A stretch of 64,000 nt of DNA, from contig NZ_CABDUX010000001.1 in NCBI RefSeq assembly GCF_901411515.1, forward strand, positions 744,001 to 808,000, in the 5' to 3' direction. Below the pieces are notes generated by a model that worked only from the letters and a program-made list of their open reading frames with translations, did not search any database and was not told the origin of the DNA. This DNA is from Raoultibacter phocaeensis (GTDB lineage Bacteria > Actinomycetota > Coriobacteriia > Coriobacteriales > Eggerthellaceae). This document shows, one piece after another, positions 44,985 to 64,000 of the stretch. A program made the position numbers and the translations under genes. Within the stretch, counting starts at the first letter, position 1. Every line of letters starts with the position of its first letter.

Positions 44985-45881
44985 CTACAAAGCGAACCCG
45001 TACGCGTCGAGCGCGTATTTCGGCACCATGAAACGCACTGTCTTTTCGGGATCGACCATCTGGCATACCTGCACATCGGCCACCAACGAAAACAGCATGA
45101 CGAGCTCGTCTTCGCCAGCCCCCGTGGCATCGCTTACCAATTTCACCATGTCGTGTACGGCGATGGTTGCAGCTTCGTCGAGCGTTTCAGCCGAGGCGAT
45201 CACGCCTATGTGGGTCTCGTTTTCGATGAGGGGGTTTTCGACGTGCATCTCGGGCAGCGCGGTCAGACGCACCGTTGCCCCCCCCGCCACTTCGGCTCCC
45301 GACACGCTGATCTCGCCATCGCCCATAGCCGCGTGCATATCGCCGCACCCGAACAGGGCCCCTTCGGCGGCAACGGGAAAGTACAGCGTGGCCCCTGTAG
45401 TGATGGCCTTGTTGTCCATGTTGCCGCCGTGCGATCCGGGCGTACCGCAATTCACGGGATCGCCTGCAGGTGCTACACCGATCACACCGATCATGGGGTT
45501 GAGCGGGATCAACAGCGATTCGTTCCATACGAGCGAATCGCCGTCGATGGCGCACAGATGCGTGCTCCATCCCCCGAACAAATCGCCGCACACACCTTCT
45601 TCCTTGCCGGTGCACGATGCCGTTTGATCGTCGAGCTCAATGTCGAGAATCTCCACCTTAAGCACGCCGCCCGACTGAGCTCCTTCTACGAAAATCGGTC
45701 CCGTAGCAGGATTGATGGCGTCCCAGTCGATTTCGTCGAGCACATCGTCGGCGCTGCGCACCTGGTTGCCGAAGCAGTCTTTCGTGCGAATACGCACGGT
45801 TTCGCCTGATTCGACCGTCATTGCAGGTTCCAACCCTTGGGCAAAGGCGAACAGGGTTTTCTCGTCGCTCAACTCTTTCAT
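44985..45881 (-). CDS. Acetamidase/formamidase-family protein
   Basis: A 298-residue enzyme with the FmdA/AmdA fold: NPATGPIFVEGAQSGGVLKV, LNPMIGVIGVAP, NCGTPGSHGGNMDNKAITTG, LYFPVAAEGALFGCGDMHAA and a conserved GDGEISVSGAEV. Family members hydrolyse short amides to ammonia and carboxylate. The ATG at 45881 follows TAAGGAG. It is monocistronic and convergent with the slipin gene. A catalytic Cys, if used, cannot be singled out by reading alone. Confidence 0.9.
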   Translation of the reverse strand: MKELSDEKTLFAFAQGLEPAMTVESGETVRIRTKDCFGNQVRSADDVLDEIDWDAINPATGPIFVEGAQSGGVLKVEILDIELDDQTASCTGKEEGVCGDLFGGWSTHLCAIDGDSLVWNESLLIPLNPMIGVIGVAPAGDPVNCGTPGSHGGNMDNKAITTGATLYFPVAAEGALFGCGDMHAAMGDGEISVSGAEVAGGATVRLTALPEMHVENPLIENETHIGVIASAETLDEAATIAVHDMVKLVSDATGAGEDELVMLFSLVADVQVCQMVDPEKTVRFMVPKYALDAYGFAL

Positions 45882-49741: not shown

Positions 49742-52700
49742 TTACAGGTCGAACGCCACCGAGTCGTCGGGCTTCCAGTCGTGCTGGTCGAACTGGATCG
49801 CCCCCACGTAGGCGCGCATGAGCGGAACCGACACCGAGTACTCGTCGCCGAGGAAGCGGATCTCCGAGATGGAGTCCGAAGCCCCCGACAGCATCGAGGC
49901 CACGCCGTCGTGCACCTCGTCCGGCCACGTGAGCAGGACGGCGGCGCCGTGCATGCCCTGGAGCGCCCCGCCCGAAAGCGCATCGGGATGCCTGTCGGCG
50001 CGGGCGATGGCGACGTTGTCCAGGGAAAGGGCCTCCGCGCCTCGCGCGGGGTCGGTTGCCCACTCGGCTATCGCGAGCGAGGTCGCCACGCGCTCGTCGC
50101 CCGCGAGGCGCACCACGGCGTTCAGGGGAAGGCCCGCCGCCGAGCGCGCCTGGCTCGCGACCGACGGCGGCACCGAGTACTCGTCGCCGAGCACCAAGAG
50201 GCGCTCAAACCCGCCCGCGGCGAGCGCGTCGAGAGTGCCCTGGGTGAGCGACTTCTCGTCGAAGCCCGTCAGGAAGATGGGGCTTTTCGTGTGCGCCGCC
50301 CACGGGGAGACCGACAGCGAGTCGGGGAAGTTCATCGAGCGCGCGAGGATGGCGGTCTTGGACGCCGAGGCCCCGAGCTCCGCGAACACGAGCTCTGCGG
50401 TCTCCTGGCGCGCCTCGCCGCCGAGGCGCACGATGCTCGCACCGGGAAGCGCCGACGCGATCTCCGCCTCGACGGCGCCGGACACCGCGTACCGGTCGCC
50501 GATGATGTACACCTTCGAGGCCGAGGCCGCCTGCGAAAGCACCCGCCGGGTGTCGGGGGAAGCGCCGCCGGGTCGGTGAGCACGATCGGGGCGTTGCCGT
50601 TCGCGCCCGACAGGGCGCTCGCCGAGAGCGCGTCGGGGAAGTTGCGGTCGGCGCCCGAGGCCACGATCACCGTCTGGGCCTGCGCGACGTCGCGCCCGTA
50701 CGACGACACCTTCGCCGAGGTCTCGAAACGGTCGGCGCCGTAGAGGCGCGCGATCGAGAGCGACTTGGCGGGAACGGGGGGAGCGGCCTCTTCGAGCACG
50801 TACTCGGAGACGTCCGACGCGCTGCGGACGACGTCGAAGCCGCCGGGCGTGTAGGCCATGAGGGCCGCCTCGTCCGCGGCGGCCTCGGACCCGTCGGCGC
50901 GCTTGGCGACGAGCGATCCCGCCGCGGCGCCGTCCTCGAGGCCCTCGAAGTTCACGCGCGCGCCGGCGAGCAGGTTCTCTCCGGCGGGCACGGCTGCGTG
51001 CGTGCCCGAACCCAGGTACGCGCCGTTGTCGGCGTCCGAGGTCCCGATCCGCGGGGTTCCCCACACGTTGAGCTCGGCTCCCGTATACACGGCGATTCCG
51101 GAAGAGCCGCCTGCAAGCGCGTTGCCGCTCACCTGTACGGAGCCAGACACGTTGAGCGTGCCGCCTTCGTCGACGATGATGCCGCCCGTCTCTTTGACGG
51201 CGGTGTTGTTGGTAACGGTTGCCGATCCGGTGAGGTTCGCAACAGCAGCATCGCCATCCGAGTTTTCGGCCAGATATATACCGCCTGCTGCGTTGTTCTC
51301 GGTGCTTCCGCCGACCAGGCTCGCGCTGTTGTTGTCGATGGTTGCCGATCCACCCACCGTTGCTTCGCTGCCGAGCAGGAACACGCCAGCACCCAAATCG
51401 CCGGTGTTGCCGTTGATCGAAACGGTATCCGAAGCAGCGAGCGAGACGTTGCTCGAAAGGCAGACGCCTCCCCCAAGCTCCGCTTCGTTCCCTGAGACCG
51501 ATACGCTGTCTTTGAGCGCGAGCGAGGTGGAAAGCGTCGCGCTCGCAGGCATTAACCGGATACCGCCGCCATAGACGGCAGTGTTGCCCGAAACCGTGAA
51601 CGTGTCGGTGATTTCCGCATCGATGCCGCAGAGGTACATGCCGCCGCCCTGCTTCGCCGCTGCATTCCCCGACACTTCGACGTTGCCGCCGAACGTAATG
51701 TCGGCGTTGTGGTTCGCATTCATCGCCTGCACAACGACGCCGCCGACGTTGTCGCCTGAGTTTCCAGTTACGATTGCATTGCCGGAAAGCTCGATCACGC
51801 GCTTGTTCGTGGGACTTGCATCGGGCATGACAACGGCAATGCCACCGCCTGTCACCGATGCCTTGTTGTCGCTGATGACCGCATCGCCGGAAACGACGAT
51901 GCCTGTTTTCGCTCGATAGGGAGCGTAGTATTCATGATAGATCGCACCGCCGTAGCGCGATTCGTTCCCCGAGATGGATCCGCCGAGAATCTGGGTATAA
52001 CCTGCCGCACCCTGCCAGATGCCACCGCCCCAGCCCGCGCCCGAAGTTGCGATGTTTTCGGAGATGGTTCCATCGGTCATGGTGAACTCGCCGTCGCTGA
52101 TGTACACGCCGCCCCCGCCGCGAGTACCAGTGTTATGGGAGATGGATCCTCCAGCGAAGGCAAACAGACCGTTCGTAACGACGCCTCCGCCAAGGTAATC
52201 GGGCGTTACCGCGTTGTAGACGATGTCACCACCGGTCATATGGACTTCGCCCGTATACGAGCCCAGCGCAAGTCCGCCGCCGCCGTTCGGGCACTCGTTT
52301 CTCTGGATGGTACCGCCGCTCATGTACAGCTTCGAGGTGTCCCCCTCGGGCCACGTTCTCGAAACATACACGCCGCCACCGATGCCGTTCGATACATCGT
52401 TGTACGTTGCTTTGTTGTCTTCGATAACCGCACCTTCATTGATGTACACCGTCGAATCGACGATCGCGTTGAGCCCGCCGCCGTTACCGACGGTCTTCAC
52501 GTTGTTGCGCAAAGTCGCTCCCGTGTTCAGTGCGATCGTCCCGCGATCGTTCGCCTCGACAAGCGAACCCGTGACTCCCGCTACAGCAGTGCCGCCGCCG
52601 TCGAGCGTGATGTTTTGAAGCGTGAGCTTACCGCCGTCCGTCACGTAGAAAAATTCGCTGAGAAACGAACTGCCGCGCGAAAGCACGGCAGGACTGGCCT

Positions 52701-53162
52701 CATCGCTGAAGATCAGGACGTCGTAGTTTGCTTGTACGGTATTCGTGGAGGTGATGGGGAAGTCTGCCGTAACCTCGATCTCAGGCTCTTGCGCTGAAAG
52801 GGCCGCCTGCAGTTGCGCCTCGGATGCAACCTGAACCGCAGCGAGCGGAGCAATGTACGAGGAGGCTTCGGCTGGTTGCATACCGGCTGCCTCTGAGAAC
52901 CCTACGCCGACTTCAACTTCCTCCCAGCCGGGAGTTTCGATTTCGATGCCGCCCGACATCGAACCAAGATCGATAGGAGCGAGCAGATCGTTTTGCTGCT
53001 CAAGGGAAAGGCGGGAACCCGCCAAGGATGATGCGCTCGCACGTGCGTCGGTACCTACATCATGTTCCGCGTAAGCGGAAGAGGGCAAAAAAATGCTGCC
53101 CCCCCCAGCGCAAGGCATGCTGCAAGCACAACGGCTATGCGATTCGCCGCTTTCGATACCAT
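49742..53162 (-). pseudogene. Second beta-helix/CWB2 surface protein, interrupted by two frameshifts (phase-variable or decayed)
   Basis: The real start is the ATG at 53162, after a GGAAAGGA SD. It begins MVSKAANRIAVVLAACLALG, a signal peptide, but a G8 tract (53099-53106) throws it out of frame. With nine G it would continue GGSIFLPSSAYAEHD with an AYA cleavage site. The long frame then covers a beta-helix region (GGGVYVSRT, GGGLALGSY, GGAIYHEYY repeats) and the first CWB2 module (YGADRFETSAKVSSYG). At a C5 tract (50555-50559) a one-base loss breaks DPAAL-PDTRRVLSQAA; the rest of CWB2 continues in another frame to VAFDL at 49742. The last 1.3 kb is much more GC-rich than the beta-helix part. 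Two reversible one-base changes would restore it. Confidence 0.85.
53099..53106 (-). repeat. G8 tract inside the signal-peptide coding region
   Basis: Eight G on the coding strand, directly followed after CAGCA by T7. The upstream signal-peptide frame and the downstream protein frame differ by exactly one base here. Gain of one G would put the gene in frame, the signature of slipped-strand phase variation. Confidence 0.75.
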
Positions 53163-53289
53163 GTTTTATTCCTTTCCGGATCACCGACGGGTAAAGGTTA
53201 ATTAATAAATTACCTATATTATTAAAAAAATGCAAGTACTTTCATATTTTTTGTTGGAAATGGTAGTGATTTTCTAGGATTTCATAAGA

Positions 53290-53327: not shown

Positions 53328-54668
53328 CTACTGGGTTTCTTCGATAGTCGGAAAATCGCGAAGTGCGCCGTTTTTGAGGACGAGGGTGACTACCGTGCCT
53401 TCCCCGAGCTCGCTTTCGATTTCCATACGCGTTCCCGGGCCGAAGTATCCGCGTATGCGGTCATTCACGTTCTTGACGGCGATGCCGAGGCCTTTCGACG
53501 AGTGCGGATGCAGGATGTTCTGCCGCGCCTCCTCGGTCATGCCCACCCCGTTGTCCTTGACCCGCACGTACACGTCGTCGCCTTCGCGCACGCCGCTCAC
53601 TTCGATCTCGAGCATGCCCTCCGACGGCATAGCATGGCGAACGGCGTTCTCCACGAGCGGTTGGATAAGAAACGGCGGCACCATCATGTCTTCAACCTCA
53701 GGCTCGACATCGACGTCGATCGATACGCGATCCTCCCCAAAGCGCGCTACCTCGAACGAGAAGTACCGAAGCGTCTGCTCGAGCTCGCGTGCGAACAGGA
53801 TGAGCTCGGCCGAATCCTCGAGCGTACGACGGTAGAACACCGCAAACTCGCGCAAGAGGATACGTGCTTTTTCGGGGTTCGTGCGGATAAGCGAGGCGAT
53901 CGTATTGATCGTATTGAACAAAAAGTGAGGGTTGATCTGGCTTTGCAGCGCTTTGAGCTCCATGCTTGTCGCAAGCTTGGTCTGCTGCTCGAGCGCCGCG
54001 GCCGCCATCTGGGTCGAAAGCAGCTTGCCGAAACCTTCGGCGATCGACTTCTGCGTTTCGCTGATATTGCGCGAGCGACGGTAGTAGAACTTGAGGGTGC
54101 CCTCCACATGGCCGCCTATGGCAAGCGGCACGATTATGGCCGCTTTGATGGTGGTTTCCGTGGGAAAACCGATGTCTTCGGTAGAAAGGAGGATGCGCAT
54201 CTTGCCATCTTGCAGGGTCGCGTGCGTCGCGTGCGTGCGGATTTCGCTGCCGGCAGGATTACGATCCTCTTCCACGCCGGCGTAGCCGAGAATCTGGTCC
54301 TTATCGGTGATAGCCACCGCAATGGCAGCGGTAGAAGGAAGCAGCAGATGGCAAACCTTTTGCGCAGACGAGCGGTTGAGCCCCTCCTTCATGCACGCAA
54401 GCGTTTGACTGGCGAGCTTGAGCATCGCGTCGGACTGACGAGCGCGCACGTTGTCGGGATCCATGAGCAGGCGAATGACCACCACGAGCGAGAACGTGAA
54501 CACAATGCCCGCCACCACCATGACGCCGATGTTCTTGTTCGGCATGACGATGGACCAGACGAGCGCGAAGCCCGAAAGCACCGCGAACGTGAACATGAGC
54601 ATCTCGAGCGTAAAGAAACGGGGCAGCGTTGATTGCCGGGTCTTTTCGCTCTCGGGTTCATTGGCCAT
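53328..54668 (-). CDS. LytS/YpdA-like sensor histidine kinase with GAF-like domain
   Basis: A 446-residue kinase. Two membrane helices near the N-terminus (EMLMFTFAVLSGFALVWSIV, IGVMVVAGIVFTFSLVVVIR) are followed by a GAF-like sensor region (about 85-210), the His_kinase domain with the phosphoacceptor His in LQSQINPHFLFNTINTIASL, and a HATPase with PPFLIQPLVENAVRHAM, DNGVGM and SKGLGIAVKNV. Such kinases normally pair with LytTR regulators; the only one here is at 36983-37696. The ATG has GGAGG upstream. Ligand unknown; family members sense pyruvate or other small metabolites. Confidence 0.93.
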   Translation of the reverse strand: MANEPESEKTRQSTLPRFFTLEMLMFTFAVLSGFALVWSIVMPNKNIGVMVVAGIVFTFSLVVVIRLLMDPDNVRARQSDAMLKLASQTLACMKEGLNRSSAQKVCHLLLPSTAAIAVAITDKDQILGYAGVEEDRNPAGSEIRTHATHATLQDGKMRILLSTEDIGFPTETTIKAAIIVPLAIGGHVEGTLKFYYRRSRNISETQKSIAEGFGKLLSTQMAAAALEQQTKLATSMELKALQSQINPHFLFNTINTIASLIRTNPEKARILLREFAVFYRRTLEDSAELILFARELEQTLRYFSFEVARFGEDRVSIDVDVEPEVEDMMVPPFLIQPLVENAVRHAMPSEGMLEIEVSGVREGDDVYVRVKDNGVGMTEEARQNILHPHSSKGLGIAVKNVNDRIRGYFGPGTRMEIESELGEGTVVTLVLKNGALRDFPTIEETQ

Positions 54669-63057: not shown

Positions 63058-64000
63058 ATGGAAGTGACGACTTCTGCACCGCACGGCACGACGGCAAGAA
63101 CCTCTTCGGTAGCGCGGGGGGCCAACCAGATAAACGACAATCGCGCGATGCGCGAGCGCTTCGGCGAGCTCATGGCTTCGGAAAAACGCTTCGGCGTGCT
63201 TGCGATCGGCATCGACGACTTCGATCGCGTCAACAACCTGTATTCGTACGCCTTCGGAGACGAGGTGCTCGATACGCTCAATTATTTCATTGATATTCGC
63301 ACCCCCCCCCAACGAACGTATAGGTTCGACGGCGATTGCTTCGGCATAATCCTTCCCGATACAAGCGATACCGAAGCACTGCTTTCCCTGTTCAACAGTC
63401 TTCTTGAGTTCACCTCTTCAGGATTCGCCATCGACGGTACTGCCGTTTCGTTCAAAATCTCCGGCGGAATCTGCTTATACCCCGACAACGGAGACAGCGC
63501 CGATGAGCTGTACCGCAATCTGCGCATCGCCCTTTCGGATGCCAAGCGAACAGGCGGATCCTGCACCGTCTGCACGCCATCGCTTTGCGCCGATTCGCGC
63601 AAAGCGCTCTTGCTCATGGAAACGCTCCAACGCTGCATTTCCGCTTCCTTCAGAGGCTTTTCGGCCCGCTTCCAGCCGGTAGCCGACGCGGACACGGGCG
63701 AAATCCACGGCTGCGAAGTGCTCATGCGCTGGGGCGACGAACTGTTCCCCGAGGGGGTAACGCCGTTCGAGTTCATCCCCTATCTCGAAGAAAGCGGTCT
63801 CATCACCGCGGCAACGACATGGCTCATGGATGTCGCCTTCGAACAGGCGCGCCAGTGGATCGACATCGATCCCGCATTCATCATGAACATCAACATATCC
63901 AAATACACGCTCGAAGACCCACTGTTCAGGTTCCACATCGTGAAAGCCGCGAAGAAGCACCGCGTCGATCCCCACCACATCATGCTCGAGCTCACGGAAA
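63058..64000 (+). CDS. Diguanylate cyclase/phosphodiesterase-like protein (degenerate GGDEF + EAL), 3' partial
   Basis: The frame opens at ATG 63058, shortly after AAAGGGA, and runs past the window end. A GGDEF-type domain is recognisable (ERFGELMASEKRFGVLAIGI, DDFDRVNNLYSYAFGDEVLD, FKISGGICLYPDNGDSADEL) but the active-site loop reads RFDGDCFG instead of (R)GGDEF, so cyclase activity is unlikely. The EAL domain begins FQPVADADTGEIHGCEVLMR, with ExLxR intact, then MNINISKYTLEDP and MLELTE, so phosphodiesterase activity is possible. No membrane segment is seen. A C9 run (63302-63310) lies in the coding region without breaking the frame. Confidence 0.88.
   Translation, partial: MEVTTSAPHGTTARTSSVARGANQINDNRAMRERFGELMASEKRFGVLAIGIDDFDRVNNLYSYAFGDEVLDTLNYFIDIRTPPQRTYRFDGDCFGIILPDTSDTEALLSLFNSLLEFTSSGFAIDGTAVSFKISGGICLYPDNGDSADELYRNLRIALSDAKRTGGSCTVCTPSLCADSRKALLLMETLQRCISASFRGFSARFQPVADADTGEIHGCEVLMRWGDELFPEGVTPFEFIPYLEESGLITAATTWLMDVAFEQARQWIDIDPAFIMNINISKYTLEDPLFRFHIVKAAKKHRVDPHHIMLELTE

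Follow-up and report, generated by a model that had tools for sequence, protein, structure and literature searches.

A putative poly-G switch in a cell wall surface protein gene of Raoultibacter phocaeensis and a genome-wide set of nine-base G runs

A surface protein gene in Raoultibacter phocaeensis, identified in a stretch of 64,000 nucleotides that we refer to as the window, is probably one locus in a genome-wide set of poly-G contingency (phase-variation) loci, a reading to which we assign a probability of about 0.7 based on the sequence patterns described below. According to the proposed mechanism, slippage of the DNA polymerase on a run of guanines would add or remove one base and thereby shift translation between frames. 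A gene in the readable frame would give a β-helix protein that is exported via the Sec route and held on the cell wall by CWB2 repeats, and in the other frame just a stub of 35 residues would be made. The copy of the gene in the assembly, which contains 8 guanines, would represent the OFF state. We infer that the run lengths are changing in the living population, and that the surface is altered thereby. The mechanism itself is already known, and it is the whole repertoire rather than one gene that is considered here.

Structure of the surface protein gene

The ATG start codon of the surface protein gene is located at positions 53160 to 53162 on the minus strand, and the main features of the gene and its neighbors are listed in Table 1. 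At the Shine-Dalgarno-like GGAAAGGA, the orthologue in Raoultibacter timonensis has AGAAAGGA. With the 8 guanines of the assembly, the product is MVSKAANRIAVVLAACLALGGAAFFCPLPLTRNMM followed by a termination codon. With 9 guanines, the sequence is MVSKAANRIAVVLAACLALGGGSIFLPSSAYA, which by inspection represents a signal peptide with an AYA motif before EHDV, and the frame reads on. As expected of a contingency locus, a one-base change at the run thus toggles between the 35-amino-acid stub and the next frame, which contains 922 open codons (53100 to 50332). The suggestion in the initial annotation, that the signal peptide contains a G8 run and would be restored by a ninth guanine, was thereby borne out. 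It was also noted that a T7 run, overlooked in that annotation, is located 5 bases downstream of the G8 run. Since a one-base change at the T7 run would give the same frame, the G8 run is not the sole possible hinge.

Table 1. Features of the surface protein gene and other features of the window, in window coordinates.
Feature	Position	Strand	Remarks
Surface protein gene with 2 breaks: signal peptide, β-helix passenger, CWB2 wall-binding region	49742..53162	-	
Shine-Dalgarno-like GGAAAGGA	53170..53177	-	ATG 7 nt further on; from sequence
Signal peptide region including the G run	53068..53162	-	G9 reading MVSKAANRIAVVLAACLALGGGSIFLPSSAYA; R. timonensis MAKSMQQRGMAVVLAACLALQLGGVVISPPSASA
G8 run (C8 on the plus strand), proposed switch	53099..53106	-	Out of frame as assembled
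T7 run (A7 on the plus strand), possible second hinge in signal peptide	53087..53093	-	Not conserved in R. timonensis
Right-handed β-helix passenger (predicted)	50989..52845	-	AlphaFold2 model: strands throughout, pLDDT mostly 80 to 97 there
CWB2 repeat 1, first part	50569..50748	-	PF04122, residues 785-844, model positions 1-46 of 73
C5 run at the second frameshift (G5 on the plus strand)	50555..50559	-	tblastn against R. timonensis switches frame here
Remaining CWB2 region in the other frame, 269 stop-free codons	49745..50551	-	PF04122, 2 stretches; dN/dS about 0.15
Intact tandem paralogue, 989 amino acids	46145..49114	-	Signal peptide without G run
Histidine kinase-like neighbor gene, control	53328..54668	-	93% identical to the R. 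timonensis gene, in frame; named by sequence and inference
C9 run within a PAS/EAL/GGDEF gene	63302..63310	+	In frame; second long run of the class in the window

The passenger is predicted from the structural model to be a right-handed β-helix. The Foldseek matches were largely to β-helix proteins, all of them weak and none with an E-value of 0.001 or below, and a PDB sequence search with the surface protein gave no match. The gene has the organization of CWB2 proteins, with a signal peptide, assigned by inspection, and CWB2 repeats (PF04122) identified in both frames.

The second frameshift, which the initial annotation had placed at the C5 run in the wall-binding region, is real. The tblastn alignment with R. 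timonensis covered positions 53130 to 50557 and then continued from 50656 to 49745, and the open stretch in the other frame contained 2 more CWB2 matches. A role for the C5 run as a second switch was rejected, as the run is short and has no counterpart in relatives. The break represents either an ordinary indel of recent origin or an error of assembly, unrelated to the switches. Given this separate break, a length change confined to the G run would, in this assembly, yield a secreted passenger without most of the wall-binding region. Contingency loci are expected to be otherwise intact, as is the R. timonensis orthologue, but the C5 break means that this copy of the gene is no clean switch.

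The CWB2 end of the gene (49745-50551) showed 71% amino acid identity to the tandem paralogue in the same genome (46145-49114) versus 67% to the orthologue, a pattern like that of gene conversion. A mix-up of the paralogues during assembly is unlikely, since their CWB2 parts are just 75% identical at the DNA level, with one identical stretch of 67 bases. In R. timonensis, a third tandem CWB2 paralogue of 1095 amino acids (L122) was identified, which was absent from the corresponding place in the window.

Comparison with Raoultibacter timonensis

The genome of the sister species, R. timonensis Marseille-P3277, was selected for comparison, with one genome per species. The orthologue of the surface protein gene was intact and showed 68% identity over the segment upstream of the C5 break. 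It contained a G8 run, in frame, at the homologous position of the signal peptide; conservation of the position of a run among relatives is expected of contingency loci, and was found here in a single relative. The dN/dS ratios were 0.17 before and 0.15 after the C5 break and 0.20 for the intact paralogue, with dS values above 1, so that all of these ratios are rough. The similarity of the broken gene to the intact paralogue in this respect indicates that the breaks are recent.

Simple decay, which the initial annotation had named as an outcome that would speak against a switch, did not agree with these data. Additional stops and relaxed selection, as expected of a pseudogene after long decay, were not seen in the broken gene, which has a dN/dS ratio like that of the intact paralogue. 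The orthologue is intact, and long decay was rejected. A fixed loss, whereby the gene would be an ordinary pseudogene and the G run merely the site of the first indel, is a separate matter. The 2 independent one-base breaks and the adjoining intact paralogue are in line with such a loss, but the 922 + 269 codons contain no in-frame stops, the dN/dS ratio equals that of the paralogue, the intact orthologue has a G run at the matching position, and there are 24 comparable runs in the genome. We consider fixed loss improbable, although a very recent loss superimposed on a switch is possible.

Alternatively, the RNA polymerase or the ribosome could slip at the G run, in which case some full-length protein would be made at any length of the DNA run and expression would be tuned rather than switched. 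G runs of such a length are plausible slippery sites, and purifying selection has persisted in the broken gene. However, the in-frame length differs between the 2 species, and since R. timonensis reads G8 in frame, there is no conserved requirement for frameshifting. Programmed frameshifts are also expected to be conserved in relatives, whereas the R. timonensis orthologue has a single frame. Slippage at this level thus appears distinctly improbable.

Three other runs occupied corresponding positions in the 2 species. A DUF11 surface gene (L074/L107) carried a G9 run close to the beginning of its signal peptide in each species. A GGDEF gene (L060/L112) and one further gene (L062/L114) had a run of exactly 9 bases upstream in both species, with conserved flanks, and we noted that these upstream runs may affect the promoter spacing or the transcript leader. 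A large gene with a pilin-like start (L068/L119) also contained a run in both species, but at positions 74 residues apart.

Runs of 9 bases across the genome

The exact G/C runs in the 3.86 Mb genome amounted to 25 of length 7, 5 of length 8, 24 of length 9, none of length 10 or 11, and a single run of length 12. A five-fold drop per added base gives a chance expectation of about 1 run of length 9, and the probability of observing at least 24 is below 1e-20. Homopolymers that are longer or commoner than expected by chance are a feature of contingency loci. No A/T runs longer than 8 were identified in a tract-enriched sample of 334 kb. It could be argued that the G8 run in the surface protein gene arose by chance, with the glycine codons of the signal peptide happening to make a run, and LGG and LGGG are indeed natural in signal peptides. 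Such a coincidence is hardly credible given the excess of G9 runs, the occurrence of noncoding runs with conserved flanks, and the fact that C runs are found in frame as well.

The surroundings were inspected for all 30 runs of length at least 8. Genes contained 17 of the 24 G9 runs, 10 of which were in frame (L064, L067, L068, L071, L074, L082, L083, L085, L086, and L087), while 7 genes had their break precisely at the run (L069, L070, L072, L073, L075, L081, and L084). The broken genes were for 4 BspA-type LRR proteins, an RCC1/SpaA protein with an LPXTG-like end, a DUF6020 membrane protein and a secreted protein. At one of them, L070, family matches flanked the run, with LRR_5 before it and List-Bact repeats after it. 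The genes with G9 runs in frame included those for large secreted proteins, a further BspA-type LRR protein, LicD, a GT2 glycosyltransferase, a PAS/EAL/GGDEF protein, and a sigma-54 activator. When codon usage was scanned with 22 genes of the window as the training set, the result agreed with 13 of the 17 frame assignments, and no call was obtained for the other 4 genes or for the surface protein gene at 49742-53162. The lone G12 run was located in frame in a lysA-like gene, and 2 of the G8 runs were in frame in ordinary genes. One in-frame G8 run is located in the window at 45278-45285, in an ordinary enzyme-like gene (L065).

Contingency loci are expected in genes that face the environment, and the Pfam families of the run-bearing genes (BspA-LRR, RCC1/SpaA, DUF11, LicD, GT2, EAL/GGDEF) match this expectation. 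The switch architecture recognized in the initial annotation was thus supported, and turned out to be far broader than a single gene, comprising a genome-wide repertoire of runs, mostly of 9 bases, in genes for surface proteins, glycan enzymes, and c-di-GMP regulators.

The frequency of breaks at the run was 7 of 17 for G9 and 2 of 15 for the G7 controls, a difference that was not significant (P = 0.12), and since breaks also occur in the controls, frame breaks alone are no proof of switching. The length distribution peaked at exactly 9, with no runs of 10 or 11, and differed from that in R. timonensis, in which there were 26 G9, 5 G10, one G11, and one G13 runs. Lengths of almost exclusively 9, with none of 10 or 11, are narrow for slipping loci, and this counts against the interpretation of the runs as switches.

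The lengths also bear on whether G/C runs were miscalled by one base in the consensus, in which case the surface protein gene, and perhaps all 7 broken genes, would really be intact. Such an error would agree with the 2 one-base breaks within a single gene, with the one-base breaks found at a G7 run and a C7 run elsewhere in the assembly, and with the finding that 6 of the 7 broken G9 genes need one extra G. It would also fit the absence of the G10 and G11 runs that are present in R. timonensis. According to Penno et al., the major length of one G run in culture is not the length given in RefSeq, and G runs are subject to an Illumina artefact (PMC9187656). Nevertheless, the G12 run in the lysA-like gene was called in frame, no break was seen in about 22 orthologous genes of the window, and the architecture and conservation of the runs are independent of the called length. 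Moreover, with 10 G9 genes in frame, a length of 9 is no general miscall. An error of this kind is on balance unlikely, but given lengths of almost exclusively 9 and the missing base in 6 of the 7 broken genes, under-calling of G10 runs is a live rival to switching.

Generally poor assembly of the window was rejected, as the approximately 22 genes match R. timonensis in a single frame. Elsewhere in the assembly, a DUF1538 membrane protein gene was broken at a G7 run (L138; C2 near 468712) and a CnaB-type surface protein gene was broken at a C7 run (L139; C2 near 734919). One-base breaks at such shorter runs (C5, G7, C7) show that single breaks can be noise.

Relationship to known systems

Poly-G phase variation is also known from Neisseria. 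The S-layer paralogues of Clostridioides difficile are CWB2 (PF04122) proteins with a signal peptide, a variable passenger, and CWB2 repeats. The Raoultibacter surface protein has the same 3 components, but differs from them in its predicted β-helix passenger, in the location of CWB2 at the C-terminal end, and in the G run in the signal peptide.

Slippage at poly-G runs is also known in Mycobacterium tuberculosis (PMC11898584). In the sortase-pilus genes of Bifidobacterium breve UCC2003, likewise a gut actinobacterium, a G run is located between an ORF for the Sec signal and an ORF with the LPXTG motif, and its length decides whether the Sec-signal ORF and the rest are joined (PMC9187656). Mixed lengths were measured in that system, with one run mostly at G11 to G12, whereas the lengths in Raoultibacter are those in the assembly, mostly 9, and occur in many kinds of genes. 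Gardnerella, also an actinobacterium with many long G/C runs, has a median of 20 such runs per genome, for which slippage has been invoked (PMC11287997). About 70% of the runs in Gardnerella are located upstream of genes, whereas 17 of the 24 nine-base runs in Raoultibacter are inside genes.

In Campylobacter jejuni NCTC11168, there are 29 loci with G/C runs of at least 7 bases (PMC4965091). The toggling of frames by G/C runs is similar, but in Raoultibacter, which belongs to another phylum, the runs are mainly in genes for large wall proteins, and some are within signal peptides. In Eggerthella lenta, the capsule is reportedly varied by DNA inversion (PMC13174815). No report on slippage in Eggerthella, Eggerthellaceae, or Coriobacteriia was found in the literature searched, which included few of the subscription journals.

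Repair genes and distribution in the family

No matches to MutS_I were obtained in 26 Coriobacteriales genomes, compared to 11 of 14 control genomes, and no match to NucS was obtained in the Raoultibacter genome studied here, compared to 7 of 14 control genomes. If MutS and NucS are absent, slippage would presumably stay uncorrected.

The median number of exact G9 runs was 5 per genome in the Eggerthellaceae, with at least 10 runs in 28 of 86 genomes, and 1 per genome in the other orders of the class, with 10 or more in none of 57 genomes. Many of the Eggerthellaceae also carry longer G runs, some of which are located in repeats or at the ends of draft contigs, so that counts alone cannot prove switches. 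We would put even odds on the broader view suggested by these patterns, namely that the Eggerthellaceae run a large, undescribed system of poly-G phase variation. In Raoultibacter, such a system would have a set point of 9 bases and no detectable MutS or NucS. It would act on wall proteins as well as glycan enzymes and c-di-GMP regulators, in part by way of runs located within signal peptides or upstream of genes.

The Eggerthellaceae belong to the common bacteria of the human gut and act on drugs and on compounds from the diet. Should their surface genes be switched by slippage at poly-G runs, single assembled genomes would misstate the surface proteins of a strain, comparisons of strains would score genes that are switched off as absent, and escape from phages or from the immune system could emerge inside one clone. 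The list of runs provides loci that are ready for testing by read counts. The pattern in a third genus (G022) was mixed, with runs near genes for glycosyltransferases, acetyltransferase-like proteins, and proteins with signal peptides, but also within apparent intergenic repeats.
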